Source of the DNA: Candidatus Fermentithermobacillaceae bacterium
GTDB taxonomy: Bacteria; Bacillota; Sulfobacillia; Fermentithermobacillales; Fermentithermobacillaceae
Assembly: GCA_018052475.1 (NCBI GenBank)
Contig: JAGPNG010000002.1
Span: 62,001 to 126,000 of the forward strand
Reading direction: 5' to 3'
Length of the DNA: 64,000 nt
Positions 16,777 to 46,174 of the stretch are shown here, in pieces. The notes under the pieces were generated by a model. The model saw only the letters and a list, made by a program, of their open reading frames with translations. It was not told the origin of the DNA and did not search any database. Made by a program: the position numbers and the translations under genes. How positions within the stretch are numbered: position 1 is the first letter of the stretch; each line of letters opens with the position of its first letter.

Positions 16777-18585
16777 TTGTTTCGAAGAATCCTAGCGGCA
16801 GACATTGGCAGTACCACCACAAAAACCGTGCTTTTCGAAAGAAAAGACGACAAGTGGGCACTTGTGGGAAAGACTTCGGTTCCTACAACTGTTGAAGCTC
16901 CCCATCTTGACGTAATGATCGGACTTAAGAGTGCGCTATCTAGGCTGCAAGAGCGCACGGGTGTCCATATTCTAGAAGATTCAAGGCTTCTTATCGGCAT
17001 GGAGGGGGACGCAGGTGTAGACGCTTTGGTAGGCACATCGAGCGCCGGCGGAGGACTGCAGATGGTTGTGGCAGGCTTGGTCAAAGAGCTCACGGCAGAA
17101 TCTGCACACAGGGCAGCTCTTGGAGCAGGCGCTATTGTGGCCGATGTCATTGCGATCGATGATTCGAGAAGCACAATTGAGAAAATAGAGACCGTGAAAC
17201 GGATCAGACCTGACATGATCCTAATAACCGGGGGCACCGACGGTGGGAACATCTCGGAAGTGGCGTCTATTGCGGAAATCGTCGCCATGGGAACGCCGGA
17301 GCCTAGATTTGGCAAGGATTTCAAGCTGCCTGTTATCTTTGCGGGAAATGTTCAGGCGCGTCCCATCATAGAGAGGATTTTTGAAAAGCAGTCCGAGCGT
17401 ATGTACGTTGTCTATACAGACAACATACGACCTGTGCTTGAAAAAGAGGTGCTTGAGCCTGCAAGGAGAGCCATTCACGAATTGTTTCTGGAACATGTGA
17501 TGATGCATGCTCCGGGCTATGCTACGTTAGTTGCGTGGACACAAGGTAATGTGAAGCCCACACCTGTGGCAGTAGGAGATGCGCTAACGTACGTGAGCGA
17601 AATAGCTCAAGGTGACGTCTTGGCTGTTGACGTCGGAGGAGCGACCACCGACGTATTTTCCGTTATCGACGGTGAGTTTTATAGAACGGTATCCGCCAAC
17701 CTGGGCATGTCATATAGCATGGGAAATGTACTGGGTGAAGCAGGTATAGATGCGATCATGAGGTGGTTGCCTGGGAAATGGGATGACGACATTTTGAGGA
17801 ACTGGAATTTCAACAAAATGATAAGGCCGACCACATTACCTCAGACGCTAGAAGAACTCATGCTGGAGCAAGTAGTTTGCAAAGAAGTTCTGCGGCTCTC
17901 AATGAATCACCATAGGATGCTCATTCGCGAGCTCAAAGGAGTACAGCGGCGCCGCACTATCGGTGATATGTTTTACCAGACGCCCGGTGGGGAAACCCGG
18001 GTCGACATGATGAAAGTAAAAGCTATTGTAGGCACAGGCGGCGCTCTTTCCTATGCTCCTCGACGAAATCAGGCCGCTATGATACTCGTAGACGGCTTTC
18101 AACCGGAAGGCATAACCGATCTTTATGTCGACAGCCAGTTCTTGTTGCCGCACATGGGCGCCCTTATGGATATTGACAAAGAAATAGCTGCCCAGATGAT
18201 GATGACTGAATGCTTAATCCCTTTGGGTACTTGTATAGCGCCCATGGGACCGCGCGTCAGTCCAGGTAGTGTCATGGCGCAAGTCAAAATCCGAGGACGC
18301 ACCTATGAAGTGGTTGGAGGAGAGATCACGGTAATCCCTATCGACGATGCGGATGCAACAACCATAGAAGTTATTCCCGGAAGGAACTTTGATGTAGGAG
18401 CAGGTCCGGGTAAGCCCATGACGAAAGAGGCGGTAGGCGGCGTTACAGGCGTTATTCTTGACGGACGAGCTCGCCCCATAGTGTTTCCTGCGGCCAATGG
18501 CTACCAGTATGGAGCTGTAGCACGCTGGTATAGCGAGTTCGATGCTTACCCTGCTGAATTCCTAGATGAATTGACGAGGAGGTGA
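16777..18585 (+). CDS. MutL/GlmL-like ASKHA-fold ATPase (mutase-associated)
   Basis: 602 residues from TTG 16777, behind AAAGGAGGTTG. The opening ADIGSTTTKTVLFE is a phosphate-1 loop and VLAVDVGGATTDVF at about 286-299 a phosphate-2 loop, so this is an actin/Hsp70-like ATPase. DMILITGGTDGGN, GNVQARP and MAQVKIRGRTYEVVGGEI fit the MutL/GlmL family, whose genes usually sit between subunits of adenosylcobalamin-dependent amino-acid mutases and are thought to help repair or chaperone them. No mutase subunit is seen here. The gene overlaps the start region of the next one, so the two are co-translated. Role: possibly a reactivating ATPase for a remote enzyme. Confidence 0.8.
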   Translation: MFRRILAADIGSTTTKTVLFERKDDKWALVGKTSVPTTVEAPHLDVMIGLKSALSRLQERTGVHILEDSRLLIGMEGDAGVDALVGTSSAGGGLQMVVAGLVKELTAESAHRAALGAGAIVADVIAIDDSRSTIEKIETVKRIRPDMILITGGTDGGNISEVASIAEIVAMGTPEPRFGKDFKLPVIFAGNVQARPIIERIFEKQSERMYVVYTDNIRPVLEKEVLEPARRAIHELFLEHVMMHAPGYATLVAWTQGNVKPTPVAVGDALTYVSEIAQGDVLAVDVGGATTDVFSVIDGEFYRTVSANLGMSYSMGNVLGEAGIDAIMRWLPGKWDDDILRNWNFNKMIRPTTLPQTLEELMLEQVVCKEVLRLSMNHHRMLIRELKGVQRRRTIGDMFYQTPGGETRVDMMKVKAIVGTGGALSYAPRRNQAAMILVDGFQPEGITDLYVDSQFLLPHMGALMDIDKEIAAQMMMTECLIPLGTCIAPMGPRVSPGSVMAQVKIRGRTYEVVGGEITVIPIDDADATTIEVIPGRNFDVGAGPGKPMTKEAVGGVTGVILDGRARPIVFPAANGYQYGAVARWYSEFDAYPAEFLDELTRR

Positions 18586-18590
18586 GGCTA

Positions 18591-20015
18591 GTGGCTTTGA
18601 TGTCTACTCTTAAAATACTTGATATAGCAAGAATTGAGAAAGAAAGGAAAATCCCTACACCCGGTGAGGTTATGGTCAAAGTAGGTGATGTTTCGGCCCC
18701 TGACACTATCATTGCCAAGACTGAATTCATAAGAGGAAACCCGTACGTAATTGATCTCAAATCAGAGCTCAAACGTCCGTTAGATATGGATTTGGTCGAT
18801 AGCGTGTTGCTTAAAAAAGAAGGAGATCATGTACAGACAGGTGAGATAGTCGCTAGGTACCAGAAAGATTTTTGGTCTCCTGTCATAGAGGTGAAATCGC
18901 CTTGTGACGGGTTTATAGAACATATCTCAAGATTGAACGGTCAGATAGTCATTCGTGAAGATCCTCGGTCGGCAAGGCCATTGACCATTGTTGCCGCAGC
19001 GTCGCGGTTGTCTGTTCCGGCGCGGCTTCTTCGGATGTTTACAACCGTGAAGGAAGGCGAGTTTGTCAATGAGGGGCAGATAATCGCCGCTGCACCCGGA
19101 GTTGCGTCAGTAGATTTTGTATATGCGCCTATGAGCGGCGTAGTTGAGAAGATCTGCACCCTTACAGGTACTATTACTATTGCTAGGGTGATCAAGCACA
19201 TAGAGGTGCTGGCGCATATCCCGGGAGTAGTTAAGAGCATTGTACCCGACTATGGGGCAGTTGTGGAAACTGTCGGCGCATATATCCAAGGTGTATTTGG
19301 CATAGGGTACGAAGCTTATGGGCAGCTCTTGTTGCTAAGCGATGGGCCAAGGGAACCCATTTTGAGCGAGAGAATGGACAAAGAAGACGTAAAGGGTAAG
19401 GTCTTGGTGGGTGGTTCTTACGCAAGTGATGAAGTGGTTAGAAAAGCAAAGGAGAAAGGAGCTGCAGGTCTCATTATCGGCGGGGTAGACCAAAAGAGTC
19501 TGGTTTCTGTCCTCGGTAAAGAAATGTCTGCCGGTATCACAGGCTACGAAGAGTCAGATTTTACAATCATCATGCTAGAGGGGTTTGGAGAACTTCCCAT
19601 GAACGAACAGGCTTGGGATATCCTATCAAGCCGTGAAGGCAAGATTGCTTGCATAAACGGTACAACTCAGATAAGGGCAGGCGTAATAAGGCCGGAGATC
19701 GTGATCCCTGCTGACGATTTTGAAAAGTTGCTTAGCGACCCGTCTATCGACCAAATTCCTGTCGTGTCAGCATCTCAGTACGTCGAGTCCTCATCACATG
19801 TCATGTTTGCAGAAATCGAAAAAGGTGGGAGAGTAAGGTGCATAAGGCCCCCGTATTTCGGGATGTGGGGCTTCGTAGAAGACATAAGCCCAATGCCTGA
19901 ACAGGTTGAATCTGAGATTACTACAGAAGTAGCCGTGGTTAGGTTAGACGACGGGCGCCTTGTGAAAGTGCCTCAGGCTAATCTCGAGGTTTTTCCTAAT
20001 AGATCTCGGGAGTGA
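18591..20015 (+). CDS. uncharacterised barrel-sandwich (lipoyl-like) protein with KOW-like end
   Basis: About 474 residues; GTG 18591 with AGGAGGTGAG seven bases upstream is the best start. Three lipoyl/biotinyl-like hairpin segments can be read: GDHVQTGEIVARY...SPCDGFIEHI, EGEFVNEGQIIAA...APMSGVVEKI and HIPGVVKSIVPDYGAVVET. The last resembles RnfC-type sandwich domains. A Rossmann-like part follows (KVLVGGSYASDEVV...GAAGLIIGGVD). The end (GMWGFVEDI...VVRLDDGRLVKVPQANLEVF) resembles a KOW/NusG-like beta barrel. No conserved biotinylation Lys motif (MKM) is visible. It probably forms one unit with the upstream ATPase. Function unknown. Confidence 0.7.
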   Translation: MALMSTLKILDIARIEKERKIPTPGEVMVKVGDVSAPDTIIAKTEFIRGNPYVIDLKSELKRPLDMDLVDSVLLKKEGDHVQTGEIVARYQKDFWSPVIEVKSPCDGFIEHISRLNGQIVIREDPRSARPLTIVAAASRLSVPARLLRMFTTVKEGEFVNEGQIIAAAPGVASVDFVYAPMSGVVEKICTLTGTITIARVIKHIEVLAHIPGVVKSIVPDYGAVVETVGAYIQGVFGIGYEAYGQLLLLSDGPREPILSERMDKEDVKGKVLVGGSYASDEVVRKAKEKGAAGLIIGGVDQKSLVSVLGKEMSAGITGYEESDFTIIMLEGFGELPMNEQAWDILSSREGKIACINGTTQIRAGVIRPEIVIPADDFEKLLSDPSIDQIPVVSASQYVESSSHVMFAEIEKGGRVRCIRPPYFGMWGFVEDISPMPEQVESEITTEVAVVRLDDGRLVKVPQANLEVFPNRSRE

Positions 20016-30264: not shown

Positions 30265-30294
30265 TTGAATATACAGCTGGAATGGGATTATAAT
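30265..30294 (+). promoter_or_regulatory. candidate sigma-A promoter upstream of cassette 1
   Basis: TTGAAT (30265-30270), an 18-base spacer and a perfect TATAAT (30289-30294). It would give a leader of about 195 bases before the gene at 30497. Confidence 0.5.
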
Positions 30295-30496: not shown

Positions 30497-31324
30497 ATGA
30501 CTAATTTGTTGATTTTGGCTGCAGAAGCGCCGGCTAGAAAATGGGGCATCTTTGTACCGGATGACAGCACGATATTCGGTCTCTTCTTCGGGATCTTTAT
30601 GCTGATCTTGGTGTACGTCATGATCCAACGTGCCAGAGCCGGGTTGCCGATTCCCGAGATCCGCCGGATCCCCGGAATGGAGGCTTTTGAAGAGGCTGTA
30701 GGCAGAGCGACTGAGATGGGCAGGCCGGTTCACATCACCAACTACTCAGCTGACGTTGGAGACTATGACACTTGGGCATTCTGGTCATATCTGGCACACG
30801 TGGCAAAACTGTGTGCTTCGTATGACACGAGGATAATCAACACCAACGCCGAGTACCTGACCATGACAGTTAACGAAGAGATCATTAAGCAGGCTTATCT
30901 TGAAGCCGGAAGGCCAGACGCTTTCAACCCGGACGATGTAAGGTTCGTTTCGCCCTGGCAGTTTGGCTACACCATGGGTGTCGCTGGAATAATTGCCCGA
31001 GAAAAACCGGCAGCGAACTTCCTAACGGGCTATTTCTATGCAGAAGCACTCATATTGGCTGAAGCGGGTGCGTTGGTAGGAGCGATTCAGGTTGCTGCAA
31101 GTGCTTCAACCGCCCAGCTGCCTTTCTTCATTGCCGCTTGCGACTATACCATGATTGCTGAGGAATTCTATGCCGGAGCAGCCGCTCTATCCAAGGAACC
31201 TGTCATCTACGGTTCGGTGGTTGCCCAGGACATAGGGCGTGTCGTCCTTACTGCTCTCATTATCGTAGGCGCAATCATGAACACTTTCGGTAGCGATGCG
31301 ATCATAAGGCTGACCAAGTTCTAG
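30497..31324 (+). CDS. cassette 1 gene A: DUF6754-like membrane-associated protein
   Basis: 275 residues, ATG 30497 with AAAAGGAGGTGA upstream. One N-terminal membrane helix (about 25-45) precedes a large domain with EEAVGRATEMGRPVH at about 66-80, AREKPAANF at about 171-179, QLPFFIAACDYTMIAEEFYAGAAALS at about 208-233 and GSVVAQDIG, then a hydrophobic C-terminal helix (about 246-264). It resembles proteins annotated DUF6754; that name is from memory. The motifs are repeated in the paralogue at 43298. No known catalytic motif is visible. First gene of a four-gene run; its partners are at 31358, 32112 and 33048. Confidence 0.72.
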   Translation: MTNLLILAAEAPARKWGIFVPDDSTIFGLFFGIFMLILVYVMIQRARAGLPIPEIRRIPGMEAFEEAVGRATEMGRPVHITNYSADVGDYDTWAFWSYLAHVAKLCASYDTRIINTNAEYLTMTVNEEIIKQAYLEAGRPDAFNPDDVRFVSPWQFGYTMGVAGIIAREKPAANFLTGYFYAEALILAEAGALVGAIQVAASASTAQLPFFIAACDYTMIAEEFYAGAAALSKEPVIYGSVVAQDIGRVVLTALIIVGAIMNTFGSDAIIRLTKF

Positions 31325-31357
31325 TGCCCAATAAGAGGGACAAGGAGGTGAAGAAAT

Positions 31358-32014
31358 TTGAAAAGGGAAGTCCCAATGGTATTGACCCTCATATTCGCCA
31401 TCATCCGATGCGGGTTTGAGTTGATTGAGCCTATGCTTTCCTGGGAATTAGCACCGGGCCAAACAGTATTCTCAAGGTTGTCCTTTTCAATCACGTTCAT
31501 GACCGTTATGGGCCTCTTAATGGGACTCATTAACCTTACGCGACTCCACGTGAACACAATTAGGCGCAAACGGGAAAACTGGGTGTATAGTATATGGCTG
31601 CTTTTTGTACTGTACGGTTACGCTATCGTAGGACTCGGATGGGGGCCTAATGGCACCACTTTCAACTGGATCTATGAAGCGGTGATCGTTCCTCTTGACT
31701 CAACCATGTTCTCGATGCTGGCATTTTTCATCGCGTCTGCGGCATATAGAGCCTTTAGAGCAAGAAATATCGAAGCCAGTATATTGCTGGTGGTCGCGTT
31801 CATAGTGATGCTTGGCAACGTATCCATAGGAGAAATGATATGGAGTTCCTCGGGTTGGTTAGGAGGATTCAAAGGTATCAAGGACTGGATATTGGCGGTA
31901 CCCAACGTCGCACATGCCCGAGCGCTTGCAATAGGAATATTCCTCGGGGCGTATGCGGCTACCTTGCGTGTGTTTCTGGGACTGGACAAGAAATATCTTG
32001 GCGGTACTGACTAG
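31358..32014 (+). CDS. cassette 1 gene B: polytopic membrane protein
   Basis: 218 residues, TTG 31358 with AAGGAGGTGAAG upstream. Six or so hydrophobic segments. The diagnostic pieces, shared with the paralogue at 44094, are the start MKREVPMVLT, the cytosolic-loop motif FFIASAAYRAFRARN, MLGNVSIGEMIWS and the end GLDKKYLG. I do not recognise a named family. It probably forms a membrane complex with the products of genes A, C and D. Confidence 0.65.
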   Translation: MKREVPMVLTLIFAIIRCGFELIEPMLSWELAPGQTVFSRLSFSITFMTVMGLLMGLINLTRLHVNTIRRKRENWVYSIWLLFVLYGYAIVGLGWGPNGTTFNWIYEAVIVPLDSTMFSMLAFFIASAAYRAFRARNIEASILLVVAFIVMLGNVSIGEMIWSSSGWLGGFKGIKDWILAVPNVAHARALAIGIFLGAYAATLRVFLGLDKKYLGGTD

Positions 32015-32111
32015 TCATGTTTTGCGTTTGCAAGTACCCGTTCAAGTTTAGTTTGGTGAAAACCACGGAATATTCTAGGGAGATTATGACTGTTGAAGGG
32101 AGGGAAATGAT

Positions 32112-32963
32112 GTGACATTTTGGGAGAAGTTGGCAGTTATTGACCCAAGATGGATTTTTCTTGGAATGGCTGTTCTCCTTACTTTCCCCGTGCTGAGCCC
32201 CTTAGGTCTGGCCATTACAATTGACCAGGAAACGACAGTACCTATCTACAACTGGATTGAGAATCTTAATCCGGGAGATATAGTGTTTGCCGACGTGTCT
32301 TTCAGCGGAGGTTCCGAAGGAGAGCTGGGCCCCCAGCTTCAGGCCTGGTTTAGGCATTGCCTGCAAAAGGGCGTCAAAGTCGTATGGGTTGCTCAGTGGA
32401 ACACAGGTGAACGGTTGGGGTACAACATGTGCGTGGAGGTTACTGAGAAGCTCGAAGAAGAGGGCATTCACACTGAGTATGGAGTAGATTGGGTGTACGT
32501 AGGCTGGAAAGCCGGCGGCACTACCATGTGGCGCAATATGCAGATCGATTTCTGGGATGCATGCGCAGGAACCGACATGCTCGGGAATTCGTTCGATGAC
32601 CTTCCGCTGATGGAAAGAGTGCGGAAGTGGGATAAAGAGACATGCAAGGGCATTATGCTGTTTACTGCAGGTTCCCCGGGAGTTCCTACCTACACAACGT
32701 ATTTCCATGATTACGACATCTATCTTGGAGACGTTGCGGTACAGGTTCCAGGGAACATGAACTTGCTCAGGTCGGGGCAGATAAAGGGAATCCTTTGCGG
32801 TCTGCCGGGAGCAGCTCAGTATGAGATCCTTTTGGAGAAACCAGGCAGGGCAGTAAAACTCATGGATGCTCAGTCACTGGGTCACCTTTGGATTATGGTA
32901 CTTGTTATCTTGGGGAACATTGGTTTCTATGTGAGAAGGAAAAGCGGCACACCGGTAGATTGA
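32112..32963 (+). CDS. cassette 1 gene C: protein with terminal membrane anchors and alpha/beta domain
   Basis: 283 residues, GTG 32112 with AGGGAGGGAAATG upstream (the ATG just before runs into a stop). A membrane helix lies at about 15-34 and another at about 258-276, with a roughly 220-residue alpha/beta domain between. That domain has Rossmann-like strands (DIVFADVSFSGG, GVKVVWVAQWNTG, GIMLFTAGSPGVPTY, LLRSGQIKGILCGLPGAAQYE) and ends DAQSLGHL before the last helix. The paralogue at 44736 keeps SPG, SGTPGVP, QSGQIVGMI, GAAGYE and DAQSISHL. Four Cys occur here that the paralogue mostly lacks. Function unknown; it may bind a small ligand. Confidence 0.65.
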   Translation: MTFWEKLAVIDPRWIFLGMAVLLTFPVLSPLGLAITIDQETTVPIYNWIENLNPGDIVFADVSFSGGSEGELGPQLQAWFRHCLQKGVKVVWVAQWNTGERLGYNMCVEVTEKLEEEGIHTEYGVDWVYVGWKAGGTTMWRNMQIDFWDACAGTDMLGNSFDDLPLMERVRKWDKETCKGIMLFTAGSPGVPTYTTYFHDYDIYLGDVAVQVPGNMNLLRSGQIKGILCGLPGAAQYEILLEKPGRAVKLMDAQSLGHLWIMVLVILGNIGFYVRRKSGTPVD

Positions 32964-33047
32964 GGTTGTGCAATAGATAGATGAGAGAAAACTCACAGAG
33001 CTCAAAGGAAAAGAGCATCTGTCCAAAAAGATGGGAGGTGAACTCAA

Positions 33048-33653
33048 TTGACAACTGCTCAAGTCTGGGTTGCCGCACTTTGTACCCTGGCAGTTTACAG
33101 TTATCTATATAAAGAAAATCCGGCGTACAGAATCGCTGAATATACGCTCGTGGCTCTGTACACATCTTACTCAATAACCCTGGACTTTCATGAATACTTG
33201 ATACCCTACGCCCAGCGGTATGCTATAGAAGAAGGTCAATGGTATTTCTGGGTGATGGGCGCGCTAGGCTTGCTCCTTTATTTCCGGTATGCTCCGCCAA
33301 AGTATAACTGGCTTGCCAGGTATCCGATTTCTATCGCTGTTGGATGGGGTTTGGGATACAACCTGATTAGACTCCCCAGGCCGGTTATGGTCCAGGTGAG
33401 GGATGCAATGAGACCTTTGAATACAGTGAATAACGTGCTGTTCTTTGTATTCTTCCTGTGCATTCTGTTCTACTTCTTCTTTACGACAGGCAAGGAGTCT
33501 AAGTTCATACAGGGTTCCGGCCGAATCGGCAGGTACATCATGATGGTTGGATTTGGATGTGCATTTGGAAATACGGTTCAAGGGCGTATTTCTTTGTTCC
33601 TAAACAGGCTGTCTTTCTTGTTGATAGATTGGCTTGGCATACAGATCTGGTAA
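33048..33653 (+). CDS. cassette 1 gene D: polytopic membrane protein
   Basis: 201 residues, TTG 33048 with GGGAGGTGA upstream. About five membrane spans. Shared with the paralogue at 45569 are the opening YSYLYKENPAYRIAEYTLV, LLLYFRY, RYPISIAVGWGLGYNL, MRPLNTVNNVLFF and GRYIMMVGFGCAFGNTVQGRISLFLNRL. Unknown family. It ends cassette 1 and is followed by a strong terminator, so A-D form one transcript. Confidence 0.65.
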   Translation: MTTAQVWVAALCTLAVYSYLYKENPAYRIAEYTLVALYTSYSITLDFHEYLIPYAQRYAIEEGQWYFWVMGALGLLLYFRYAPPKYNWLARYPISIAVGWGLGYNLIRLPRPVMVQVRDAMRPLNTVNNVLFFVFFLCILFYFFFTTGKESKFIQGSGRIGRYIMMVGFGCAFGNTVQGRISLFLNRLSFLLIDWLGIQIW

Positions 33654-33680: not shown

Positions 33681-33716
33681 AACCAGGAAGGTTGTTACAG
33701 AAACCTTCCTGGTTTT
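33681..33716. terminator. intrinsic terminator after cassette 1
   Basis: A 13-bp perfect stem (33681-33693 with 33702-33714), an 8-base loop and a TTTT end. It lies between convergent genes and abuts the stop codon of the Nudix gene on the other strand. Confidence 0.85.
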
Positions 33717-43297: not shown

Positions 43298-44077
43298 TTG
43301 ACTTTAGTAAAAGGCAGAGTTTTTTCATTTTGGCTGCTCGTAATAGTTATTGGTTGCCTTTTGTACTCTATGTGGAAGGCGTCAAAGGGAGGCAATGTCT
43401 CGATAAGGAAGATTGCCGGACTTGACTCCATTGAAGAAGCGGTTGGCCGTGCGACAGAAATGGGCAGACCCGTTCATTACTGTCCGGGCCTAGGAGGAAT
43501 AGGTGCTGTTGAAGCACCGCAGACGTTTTCCGGATTGGCGATCTTGAGTCACATCGCAAGACTGACTGCCAGGTTCGATGTGCCGCTCATTGTCACCATA
43601 AGGCAGCCTGAGGTATTTCCTATGGCCGAAGAAACGGTTAGGCAAGCGTATCTAGAGGAAGGTAAAAGCGACAGATACGATCCTAACAACATACGATTCC
43701 TTTCATCTCAGCAGTTTGCCTACGCTGCCGCGCTTCTGGGGATTATGGCTAGGGAACGGCCTGCCGCGAACTTCATGATGGGAGCCTTCTGGGCTGAATC
43801 CCTCATGTTGGCCGAGGTAGGTTCTGAGGTTGGTGCGCTGCAGATTACAGGCACCGCCCAGCTATCTCAGGTACCTTTTTTCGTGGCCTCTTCGGATTAT
43901 ACGCTCATCGGAGAAGAGCTCTTTGCAGCAGCAGCGTATCTTTCTGGAGACAGGATGCAGCTCGGTTCCATCGTAGGTCAGGATATGGCAAAAGTGATAG
44001 TAGCAGTTCTAATAATCGCCGGTGTAGTGACTCGAAGTTTTGGCTCTAATTTCTTCGGGGAACTTCTGAGCAAGTGA
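43298..44077 (+). CDS. cassette 2 gene A: DUF6754-like membrane-associated protein
   Basis: 259 residues, TTG 43298 with GGGAGGTGA seven bases upstream. It has the same plan as the protein at 30497 but a shorter N-terminus: one membrane helix at about 9-25, then EEAVGRATEMGRPVH, the motif ARERPAANF, QVPFFVASSDYTLIGEELFAAAAYLS and GSIVGQDM, and a final hydrophobic helix (about 232-250). The two copies align over their whole length but differ in many positions, so the duplication is old or one copy was acquired separately. No enzymatic motif recognised. Confidence 0.72.
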   Translation: MTLVKGRVFSFWLLVIVIGCLLYSMWKASKGGNVSIRKIAGLDSIEEAVGRATEMGRPVHYCPGLGGIGAVEAPQTFSGLAILSHIARLTARFDVPLIVTIRQPEVFPMAEETVRQAYLEEGKSDRYDPNNIRFLSSQQFAYAAALLGIMARERPAANFMMGAFWAESLMLAEVGSEVGALQITGTAQLSQVPFFVASSDYTLIGEELFAAAAYLSGDRMQLGSIVGQDMAKVIVAVLIIAGVVTRSFGSNFFGELLSK

Positions 44078-44093
44078 AAGGGGCGATAAGTCT

Positions 44094-44720
44094 ATGAAAC
44101 GTGAATTACCCATGATACTGGCGTTTATCGTCGGTTTACTCATGATTGTATCATTCTTTTTCTCGTCTGAGCCTTTGAGCCAAGCGGCCAATACGGTGCA
44201 GAACTGGGGAGTGATAATTGCAGCGTTTGCCCTAGGATTGGCTTCAATCAATCTTATTCAAATTCACGCGAAAAGAATCGTGAAGGGCAAGGACTTGGAC
44301 TGGCTGTATTCAGGAGCACTCTTGTTTTCTATGATAGGCATAGCGATACTGGGGATCGCCAAAGGGCCTACCGACACAAACTACCAATTCTGGTTCGATG
44401 CTCTTTTTGTTCCGGGACAAGCTACGGTATACGCGATGACCGGATTTTTCATTGCCTCGGCTGCATATAGAGCATTTAGGATTAGGAACCTTGATTCGGC
44501 GATATTATTGGTATCGGCGGCCATCCTGATGCTTGGCAATGTGCCGATCGGCGAGACGATATGGTCACAGTTCCCCGTGATAGGTGAATGGCTGATGAAC
44601 ATTCCTAACCTGGCAGGGCAGCGGGGCATGCTCATAGGTGCCGGAATTGGCGGCATAGCCTCAGGCGTAAGGGTGCTTCTAGGGATCGAAAGAACGTACC
44701 TAGGCAGCTCAAGCTCATAA
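44094..44720 (+). CDS. cassette 2 gene B: polytopic membrane protein
   Basis: 208 residues, ATG 44094 after AAAGGGGCG, 17 bases from gene A. About six spans. It shares MKRELPMIL, FFIASAAYRAFRIRN, MLGNVPIGETIWS and GIERTYLG with the protein at 31358. The FFIASAAYRAFR loop is the best-conserved piece and may be the functional or interaction site. No known family. Confidence 0.66.
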   Translation: MKRELPMILAFIVGLLMIVSFFFSSEPLSQAANTVQNWGVIIAAFALGLASINLIQIHAKRIVKGKDLDWLYSGALLFSMIGIAILGIAKGPTDTNYQFWFDALFVPGQATVYAMTGFFIASAAYRAFRIRNLDSAILLVSAAILMLGNVPIGETIWSQFPVIGEWLMNIPNLAGQRGMLIGAGIGGIASGVRVLLGIERTYLGSSSS

Positions 44721-44735
44721 AAGGAGGGACAAACA

Positions 44736-45569
44736 TTGTTTGATAAGCTCGTACACATGGACCGCCGTGTTATATATGGAGTTGTTTTTCTGTCCCTCAC
44801 TATTCCCCTTATTTGGCCTATAGGTCTTGGAGTAGTAGTAGGGCCGGAGACGAAACAACTCTATGACATGGTTGAAGCATTACCCAGTGGCAGTGCGGTT
44901 ATAGTATCGATGGACACTTCTCCGGGCGGATATGGGGAGTTGTCTTCCGGCTCACTGGCGCTTTTGAACCATCTTGCGGAGAAAGGCATAAGAGTGATAG
45001 GCATGGGCTTTTTTGATACAGGCCCAAGTCTTTTGGAAACTGCGCTTGGTGGCTCCAAGTTTCGCGATAAGGAGTACGGGGTAGACTATGTAAACCTTGG
45101 GTACCTCGCCGGCGGAGAAACTGCCATGGCAAAGGTAGCCAAAGATATACTCGACAGCTTTCCAAGAGATTACAGAGGTAACGTTACCAGCGACCTTCCT
45201 GTTATGAAAGGCATAACTTCATGCGAGGATATAGCTCTTATAATTAGCATTTCGTCAGGAACTCCGGGAGTACCTGAGTGGATAAGGCAAGTTGGTGACC
45301 CTCTAGGTGTTCCCATTGCCACGGTTATCGTTGCGGTGAATGTGCCCAATATGACTCCTTATGTCCAGTCGGGGCAGATCGTTGGCATGATACCAAGCAT
45401 GAAGGGTGCGGCGGGGTATGAGAGCCTTATGGGTACTGCCGGACTCGGCACAAGGGGAATGGACGCTCAGTCAATTTCCCATCTGACCATACTTGGGTTG
45501 GTAGTGCTCGGTAACGTAGTATATCTTGCGACGAAAAATACTAAGCCCTCCGAAGGAGGTGCCCACTAA
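44736..45569 (+). CDS. cassette 2 gene C: protein with terminal membrane anchors and alpha/beta domain
   Basis: 277 residues, TTG 44736 with AAAAGGAGGG upstream. Membrane helices at about 12-32 and 248-265 flank an alpha/beta domain with SAVIVSMDTSPGGYGE, KGIRVIGMGFFDTG, DIALIISISSGTPGVPEW, PIATVIVAVNVPNM and YVQSGQIVGMIPSMKGAAGYE, ending DAQSISHL. The strand-loop pattern resembles a Rossmann or periplasmic-binding-like half, but no nucleotide motif (GxGxxG) is present. Its last base is the first base of gene D's start codon (TAATG), so they are translationally coupled. Confidence 0.66.
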   Translation: MFDKLVHMDRRVIYGVVFLSLTIPLIWPIGLGVVVGPETKQLYDMVEALPSGSAVIVSMDTSPGGYGELSSGSLALLNHLAEKGIRVIGMGFFDTGPSLLETALGGSKFRDKEYGVDYVNLGYLAGGETAMAKVAKDILDSFPRDYRGNVTSDLPVMKGITSCEDIALIISISSGTPGVPEWIRQVGDPLGVPIATVIVAVNVPNMTPYVQSGQIVGMIPSMKGAAGYESLMGTAGLGTRGMDAQSISHLTILGLVVLGNVVYLATKNTKPSEGGAH

Positions 45570-46174
45570 TGCGGATAAGTGGCGATCTTGGAACGTGGAT
45601 TGCGGCTATAGCTACCATAGGTATTATGAGTTTTGTCTTCAAAGACAACCCGCTTTACAGAATTGTTGAAAATGTCTACGTAGGGGTGTCTGCAGGGCAT
45701 GCTCTTGTATTAGGTTGGATAAACATAAGGGACCAAGGCATAACTCCTTTGACTTCTGAGGGTGAGTGGAGTGTCATAATCCCTTTGTTGCTAGGATTGC
45801 TTCTCTATACCAGATACTTCAAGGATATAGCATGGCTTTCCAGATTCCCCCTGTCCATCTTGGTAGGTATAGGAACAGGTTTAGCCATTAGGGGGACAAT
45901 CGGATCCCAGATAGTCAACCAAGTGAAAAGCACTGTACTTCCGCTAAACAACATCAATAATGCCATTATCGTCTTTGGAACGCTTGGAGTCCTTTCTTAC
46001 TTCTACTTCTCCAAAGAACACAGAGGAGTTCTCAAGCATGTTTCAACTTTTGGAAGATGCGTTATGATGGTGTCTTTTGGCGCAGCATTCGGAAGCACAG
46101 TTATGGGGCGTATGGCACTTCTTATCGACAGGCTGTACTTCCTTTACTCCAACTGGTTGGGTATCATTAGGTAA
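45569..46174 (+). CDS. cassette 2 gene D: polytopic membrane protein
   Basis: 201 residues, ATG 45569 with GAAGGAGGTG upstream. About five spans. It matches the protein at 33048 in FKDNPLYRIVENVYVG, LLLYTRY, RFPLSILVGIGTGLAI, VLPLNNINNAIIVF and GRCVMMVSFGAAFGSTVMGRMALLIDRL, and is exactly the same length. Unknown family. Last gene of cassette 2. Confidence 0.66.
   Translation: MRISGDLGTWIAAIATIGIMSFVFKDNPLYRIVENVYVGVSAGHALVLGWINIRDQGITPLTSEGEWSVIIPLLLGLLLYTRYFKDIAWLSRFPLSILVGIGTGLAIRGTIGSQIVNQVKSTVLPLNNINNAIIVFGTLGVLSYFYFSKEHRGVLKHVSTFGRCVMMVSFGAAFGSTVMGRMALLIDRLYFLYSNWLGIIR

Follow-up and report, generated by a model that had tools for sequence, protein, structure and literature searches.

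A repeated four-gene membrane cassette of Bacillota, inherited as a block and possibly part of a larger system with a GlmL/MutL-type ASKHA ATPase

The window, a stretch of 64,000 nucleotides from a Candidatus Fermentithermobacillaceae genome, contains between positions 30497 and 33653 four adjacent genes on the + strand, here called A, B, C and D (copy 1).

30265..30294, + strand: promoter-like site (10/12) upstream of A copy 1
30497..31324, + strand: A copy 1, DUF6754 protein with a terminal helix at both ends, middle domain predicted cytoplasmic
31358..32014, + strand: B copy 1, membrane protein with six helices, predicted N-in/C-in, TTG start
32112..32963, + strand: C copy 1, GTG start; helix, Rossmann-like domain of about 200 residues (predicted extracytoplasmic), helix
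33048..33653, + strand: D copy 1, polytopic membrane protein, TTG start
33681..33714, + strand: terminator-like hairpin 3' of D copy 1, short T run

Good ribosome-binding sites are present 5' of all four genes (AAGGAGGTG for A and B, GGGAGG for C, GGGAGGTGA for D), as an earlier note on this DNA had described, and the TTG at 31358 is the most likely start of B. The same note had the run closed by a strong terminator. The hairpin itself is genuine, with 13 pairs and -21.8 kcal/mol (z -5.0, none of 200 shuffles equally good), but its T run is only 4 long and a terminator scan of the + strand did not list it. The total of promoter-like sites in the region was not above chance expectation.

The same four genes in the same order were said to occur again at 43298-46174, and this is the case, with 32-40% identity between the two copies:

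43298..44077, + strand: A copy 2
44094..44720, + strand: B copy 2
44736..45569, + strand: C copy 2
45569..46174, + strand: D copy 2

Every one of the conserved pieces listed earlier is found in both copies, among them RE(K/R)PAANF in A, MLGNV-IGE in B, GTPGVP/GSPGVP, SGQI-G and DAQS--HL in C and GR-(I/V)MMV-FG-AFG in D. Both copies are real, but two is an understatement: the genome has 11 A-B-C-D cassettes, which in 1.4 Mb make up a sizeable part of the membrane proteome. By gene calls, ten of them have the strict A-B-C-D order, the sole departure in the eleventh being an over-long B open reading frame. Among these paralogues the A proteins are the most alike (44%) and the C proteins the least (36%).

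A, which had been called DUF6754-like, is a full member of this family (PF20539, cut-off 27 bits), matching with 291 bits (E 8e-87, model positions 14-253 of 257) in copy 1 and 318 bits (E 5e-95, positions 10-254) in copy 2. DUF6754 is a domain name only, carries no information on B, C, D or the partner proteins described below, and a literature search found no mention of DUF6754 or PF20539. For B, C and D, profile searches against Pfam and NCBIfam gave nothing above cut-off, in accordance with the earlier statement that no motif could be assigned to a known system, and no weak family recurred consistently when 49 C, 44 B and 44 D homologues were scanned. A BPD_transp_1 match in C copy 2 (E 7e-4) was rejected; only 2 of the 49 C proteins match it (E up to 1), with a best score of 19.8 bits, in one C, against a cut-off of 26.4. 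Searches of PDB sequences with single proteins and profiles gave no convincing match, and one to aspartate-semialdehyde dehydrogenase (E 0.03) was taken as chance. Profile comparison of A with C and of B with D did not show homology. None of eight proteins matched PADLOC-DB at E up to 0.01, that is, no known anti-phage defence system, and a search for viral or plasmid homologues found none.

Hydropathy bears out the topologies that had been proposed, with six helices in B, several in D and one at each end of C around a soluble domain predicted to be alpha/beta. From the charges flanking the helices the soluble domain of C is predicted outside and that of A inside. With a mean pLDDT of 42.3, the structure model of A-B could not be used, and the C-D model was poor in its D part. 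With the domain of C, Foldseek gave nothing in the PDB at E <= 0.001; the best VIA match in the PDB has Z 7.7, and transhydrogenase domain III, UbiX and dehydrogenases align with Z up to 7.5, where values below 8 may reflect a common arrangement only. These matches are of a generic Rossmann-like kind.

To examine the distribution of the cassette we surveyed 398 genomes, all of Bacillota. A is present in 32 of them, in 11 families, and B and D in 30 each. The A, B and D surveys scored at most 6, 8 or 7 candidates per genome and so give minimum copy numbers; the cassettes number from 1 to 30 per genome. In none of the 398 genomes does B or D occur without A, so the independent occurrence of the genes, which was to speak against a common unit, was not found. 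Order and strand are kept in every complete copy seen. Over 51 units the distances of A to D correlate (Mantel r 0.85-0.91, permutation maxima <= 0.18), and the tree has orthologous cassettes common to different genera. Single cassettes can also be lost, for example copy 1 in Bu02. Comparison of sequences thus shows that A-B-C-D behaves as one block in inheritance, duplication and loss. The proposal of one membrane complex, made from gene order, is supported by the order and strand, by the lack of B or D without A and by these correlations, and we infer that the four proteins physically associate.

The cassette nevertheless appears, from gene neighbourhoods and co-occurrence, to be only a part of a system to which the proteins G, F and also S belong. 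The four-gene unit of the earlier note stands, but it was incomplete, as these partners were not seen as members. Two of them lie upstream in the window:

16777..18585, + strand: G, GlmL/MutL-type ASKHA ATPase, long form (PF13941, E 6e-117)
18582..20015, + strand: F, barrel-sandwich-hybrid protein, long form, overlapping G by 4 bases

The G of the window, a paralogue of the G found in operons with a cassette in other families, belongs to PF13941 (391.5 bits, cut-off 27), the GlmL/MutL family of accessory proteins of glutamate mutase and ornithine degradation. It matches over 450 positions with the ASKHA motifs kept: D9 G11 S12 T13, D285 G287 G288 and G419 G421 G422, which we take to be the phosphate and adenosine motifs, are conserved to at least 90% in 33 G proteins. 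However, G has about 600 residues instead of 460, with an extra C-terminal region, falls below all three NCBIfam GlmL cut-offs and, unlike GlmL/MutL, is paired with F and a membrane cassette. F matches RnfC_N (E 2e-8; 34.4 bits, cut-off 25.6) and Biotin_lipoyl (E 2e-7), so that it shares the N-terminal barrel-sandwich hybrid of RnfC and NqrA, to whose models it has weak matches. It scores far below the RnfC subfamily cut-off (16 bits against 245.95) and has no ferredoxin (Fer4) match, and the C-terminal region is another one, with a weak PA-domain match instead.

In three families G and F are co-operonic with a cassette, and in two of them S is too; the arrangement S-ABCD-G-F is found in six genomes of two families and T-ABCD-G-F-S-G-F in the third. 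F matched 60 of the 398 genomes at E <= 0.001. Of these, 29 with weak matches only (E > 1e-6, short stretches) were set aside before counting because they were taken as shared barrel-sandwich-hybrid domains. F (E < 1e-30) is then present in 31 genomes, A in 32 and both in 30 (hypergeometric 1e-41, with no correction for kinship), so that the co-occurrence of F with A-B-C-D is almost perfect. Two exceptions fit the system. G048 has lost the S-ABCD part, and in its G about 130 internal residues are missing. In G134 there is no match to F and the cassette has diverged fast, the identity of its A-D to three members of the family being about 30-40%, while these share 70-98% among themselves. One could also suppose that G and F are a separate chaperone pair of a cobalamin-dependent mutase or radical enzyme, which accompanies A-D through shared ancestry only. 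The named relatives of G in PF13941 do assist glutamate mutase and ornithine degradation, and related genomes are non-independent samples. But the operon shared in three families, the concerted loss or decay seen in G048 and G134 and the score of long G under the GlmL equivalog for methylaspartate mutase accessory proteins (NF040745, 243.7 against 475 bits) make this very unlikely.

Our tentative explanation, which may quite possibly hold, is that A-B-C-D is the membrane module of an undescribed multi-protein system in which substrate-specific cassettes share an ATPase, the likeliest function being ATP-dependent transport. B and D would form the membrane core, C would hold a ligand-binding alpha/beta domain outside the cell, and A would hold the DUF6754 domain inside, on which the ATP-binding G would work via F as adaptor and the small protein S. 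One core G-F pair could in this way serve many cassettes differing in specificity, the work being uptake (or export) of small molecules; the transport step itself we infer. Peptides or amino-acid derivatives would be a first guess for the substrates, since their fermentation is predicted for a relative that has been described. In ECF transporters of group II, too, many substrate modules use one ATPase module encoded elsewhere. The proposed logic would be similar, but the ATPase there is a P-loop ABC protein and here an ASKHA protein; A-D matched no EcfT or S-component family of Pfam or NCBIfam, and ABC_tran matched none of A-D, G and F. That exchangeable A-B-C-D modules docking on a shared G-F-S power unit make up a new primary transport class, driven by an ASKHA (actin/Hsp70/GlmL-type) instead of a P-loop ABC or V/F ATPase, seems to us rather unlikely. 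Of 10 genomes scored in full, 8 have a single operon-type short F, whereas cassettes number from 1 to 30. G029, G040 and G102, however, have at least one A and at least three or four F genes (with no more than 4 candidates scored per genome, the F survey gives minimum copy numbers), and the count of G-F pairs therefore departs from a simple scheme of one core with many cassettes. The link to G and the carrier-like F makes of four orphan proteins a system that has an ATPase and can be tested. Long GlmL-like proteins, now called after glutamate mutase by similarity alone, gain a possible role. If the cassettes are transporters, nutrient uptake has been misunderstood throughout a class of uncultured anaerobes.

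The partner proteins also bear on two other explanations. In the type IV pilus and type II secretion platforms an ASKHA protein, PilM or GspL, stands beside small membrane proteins, an arrangement that A-D with G resemble, although neither A-D nor G matches those families in Pfam. G could accordingly be an actin-like or PilM/FtsA-like scaffold, organising the membrane proteins of an envelope or surface-assembly machine and not energising transport, as its weak MreB-like_C match (E 0.009), the two soluble domains predicted on opposite membrane sides and the autonomy of the cassettes, with no consistent metabolic neighbour, would allow. Up to 30 paralogous cassettes and the loss of single ones, as in Bu02, would be unusual for a structural machine, and in the loci read by eye no pilin, secretin or peptidoglycan gene recurs beside them; we consider this rather unlikely. 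A membrane-bound enzyme or redox/ion pump, in which the Rossmann-like domain of C would bind a nucleotide or substrate and F would be an NqrA/RnfC-like subunit, would agree with the matches of F and the alignments of C, and according to its description Bu02 is without respiratory complexes (PMC10215811). This is unlikely, as no ferredoxin, flavin or quinone-binding family was found in A-D, F or G, by eye C has no GxGxxG and A-D no invariant cysteine, and the Z scores of C, being under 8, may reflect a common arrangement only.

The function was not decided by the search for folds, the scan for RNAs, the motifs upstream or the test of hydrolase neighbours. The Rfam scan found no riboswitch or T-box directly before a cassette in the loci scanned, and no upstream 9-mer was shared in two family genomes. 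ABC_tran had fewer than 2 matches among 92 near neighbours. A Pfam scan of these 92 genes gave 4 M20, 3 Amidohydro_1, 2 TldD/PmbA and 2 S9 proteins, and that of a far set, 86 genes at distances above 5 kb, one M19 among the best 25 of the list. The idea of hydrolase neighbours, promising in the loci and in this comparison, was not borne out by position: among the matches listed in 5 of 14 family genomes, 8 of 122 M20 and Amidohydro_1 genes lie within 2 kb of a cassette, against 2 of 57 for the Radical_SAM control (Fisher p 0.51). One cassette is in an operon with RpiR and a creatininase and one with IclR. Such regulators adjoining some copies, the large number of paralogues and the predicted topology of A and C could also suggest a sensory or signalling complex, with C sensing different ligands outside and A signalling inside. 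This we hold to be quite improbable, as no kinase, cyclase, chemotaxis or other output domain is fused to A-D or consistently adjacent to them, and two polytopic proteins exceed the needs of a sensor.

A cassette of four membrane-protein genes, A, B, C and D, is present twice in the window, complete each time:

30497-33653, forward strand, A-B-C-D copy 1 (A1-D1), complete
43298-46174, forward strand, A-B-C-D copy 2 (A2-D2), complete

Identity between the copies is 40% for A, 39% for B, 32% for C and 36% for D, and ribosome binding sites are good in both, with TTG starts in B1, D1 and A2 and a GTG start in C1. A belongs fully to DUF6754, with E 8e-87 for A1 and 5e-95 for A2. For B, C and D nothing scored above the Pfam or NCBIfam cut-offs, scans of 49, 44 and 44 homologues for weaker families gave no consistent family, and a sequence search of solved structures returned no convincing relative. 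Where the earlier note saw a strong terminator closing copy 1, D1 is followed by a hairpin of 13 pairs (z -5.0); its T run is short and a terminator scan did not accept it.

The earlier note had taken A-B-C-D for one membrane complex of unknown function, and this reading withstood a survey of 398 Bacillota genomes for independent occurrence of A, B and D. A was found in 32 of them and B and D in 30 each, with B or D never present without A. A occurred without D in G229 and G425 and without B in G229 and G323; A in G229 and G323 consists of fragments only, and G425 is 72% complete. The four genes are also inherited as a block: their pairwise distances correlate at r 0.85-0.91 over 51 units (permutation maxima at most 0.18) and at r 0.33-0.58 and 0.58-0.77 inside the single genomes G000 and G004, respectively. 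Several orthologous cassettes are common to different genera in the tree, therefore the paralogues are old.

In several single-cassette genomes the cassette belongs to a longer operon, S-A-B-C-D-G-F in G168, G293, G270, G197, G222 and G362 and T-A-B-C-D-G-F-S-G-F in G040; D of G222 was detected in one reading of the locus and masked by a longer opposite ORF in another. G, a likely ATPase, is a MutL/GlmL-type protein of ~610 residues (PF13941, E 2e-128) whose ASKHA motifs are at least 90% conserved across 33 sequences; both G forms scanned from the window's source genome and the G of G168 score under the cut-offs of the NCBIfam GlmL models. F contains a barrel-sandwich hybrid (RnfC_N, NqrA_N, Biotin_lipoyl) and weakly matches a PA domain, and no family was found for the small proteins S (~90-140 residues) and T. 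In many-cassette genomes G-F pairs are encoded away from the cassettes, as in the window:

16777-18585, G of the separate G-F pair
18582-20015, F of the same pair, overlapping G by 4 bases

Of the 398 genomes surveyed for A, 31 have strong F matches (E <1e-30; 29 further genomes with weak matches only, E >1e-6, were left out), and A and F occur together in 30, with a hypergeometric probability of 1e-41 uncorrected for kinship, A spanning 11 families. Three genomes depart from this overlap, and they are instructive. In G048 F is present, the cassette is absent and G is without ~130 internal residues; in two other members of its genus the operon is complete. G134 has A-D and no F match, and its A-D are ~30-40% identical to three family members which are 70-98% identical among themselves. 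Such matched loss and fast divergence are predicted by mutual dependence. G058 (78% complete) has S-A-B-C-D adjoined by genes other than G-F.

Of ten genomes with all F candidates scored, eight have one operon-type short F, G057 has two and G028 has one and unclear pieces. The number of cassettes per genome ranges from 1 to 30, compared with a mostly single short F, which is what exchangeable modules around a common core would give. However, G029, G040 and G102, with one A among the matches listed and three or four F genes in all, speak against a simple version of one core and many modules.

Topology was read from the charge beside helices in 43-49 aligned members. It places the C domain (~210 residues) outside and the A domain (206 residues) inside, and B has six helices, its conserved arginines (AYRAFR) lying towards the cytoplasm. 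Identity of the G000 paralogues is highest in A (44%) and lowest in C (36%). The predicted C domain (residues ~40-245) is Rossmann-like with block pLDDT mostly 70-95; its Foldseek search gave no match at E 0.001, and with a VIA Z below 8 the fold may be just a common arrangement. From flanking charges, paralogue identities and the C fold we infer that C would be the ligand-binding part outside the cell, B and D the membrane core and A the docking part inside the cell for G-F-S, with ATP used by G. The likeliest work of such an assembly is substrate uptake, a reading which for the whole chain we hold tentatively, at somewhat less than even chances; an envelope scaffold, a redox or ion pump and a sensor are less probable alternatives.

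Upstream of core G-F pairs a PLP enzyme (PALP), Peptidase_C26 and Peptidase_S58 recur (L124:11776-13490, L120:3589-6556, L121 and L126), PALP and C26 in L124 and S58 in L120 by family scan and the others by eye, pointing to a possible unusual amino-acid or gamma-glutamyl metabolism. Core pairs of several families also adjoin tsaE/tsaB-like (t6A tRNA modification) and thiL-like genes, identified by eye rather than by family scan (L120, L122, L124, L137, L080, L084). T is a small membrane protein whose soluble tail is conserved; one genome has it directly ahead of the cassette, and three have it inside the G-F locus:

L087:9050-9520, T
L120:6675-7397, T
L121:6775-7479, T
L124:11187-11684, T

Among 5.39 million papers outside subscription journals and preprints, no mention of DUF6754 or PF20539 was found, nor anything on glutamate mutase, MutL, ATPase and reactivation together; a match for GlmL with glutamate mutase concerned mesaconase. 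PADLOC gave no match and none of the families tested covers the whole system.

An RpiR regulator and a creatininase share an operon with one cassette, and another is preceded by an IclR regulator; a general link between cassettes and hydrolases was tested and not shown. Neither an RNA regulator directly in front of a cassette (in the loci scanned) nor a shared upstream motif was found. A thiD-like gene, recognized by eye, adjoins a cassette in two families (L034:7497-11799, L141:7199-12001), with a TPP riboswitch between D and thiD in L034, and cobalamin riboswitches lie near two cassettes, yet before other genes (L021:3869-4065, L023:13146-13339).

The source genome (1.40 Mb, 93% complete), with the window on its contig 23, has its nearest named records in Candidatus Fermentithermobacillaceae MAGs (class Cand. 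Fermentithermobacillia, Bacillota), with C identity up to 91%. A complete genome of the same family, Cand. Fermentithermobacillus carboniphilus Bu02 (2,316,832 bases), belongs to an organism described as a peptide and amino-acid fermenter without respiratory chains, whose transporters were looked for in TCDB; A-B-C-D cassettes are not mentioned in the passages of its paper covered here (PMC10215811). Individual cassettes decay, the Bu02 counterpart of copy 1 (L019:7779-9109) being reduced to the end of C plus D, and a second locus (L029:15920-17012) retaining A and D fragments. Across the 14 genomes of the family the number of A varies from 5 to 15, and G028 has 30 C matches. In G345 (L095, L096) seven whole cassettes follow one another in tandem at ~3.2 kb intervals, every one having a spacer of its own. 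A and C each number 11 in the source genome, and 10 of its 11 cassettes are complete A-B-C-D runs by gene calls, the eleventh differing solely in an over-long B ORF overlapping A. Two of its cassettes (L022:2442-8455) are arranged tail to tail, with 134 bases separating their facing D genes.
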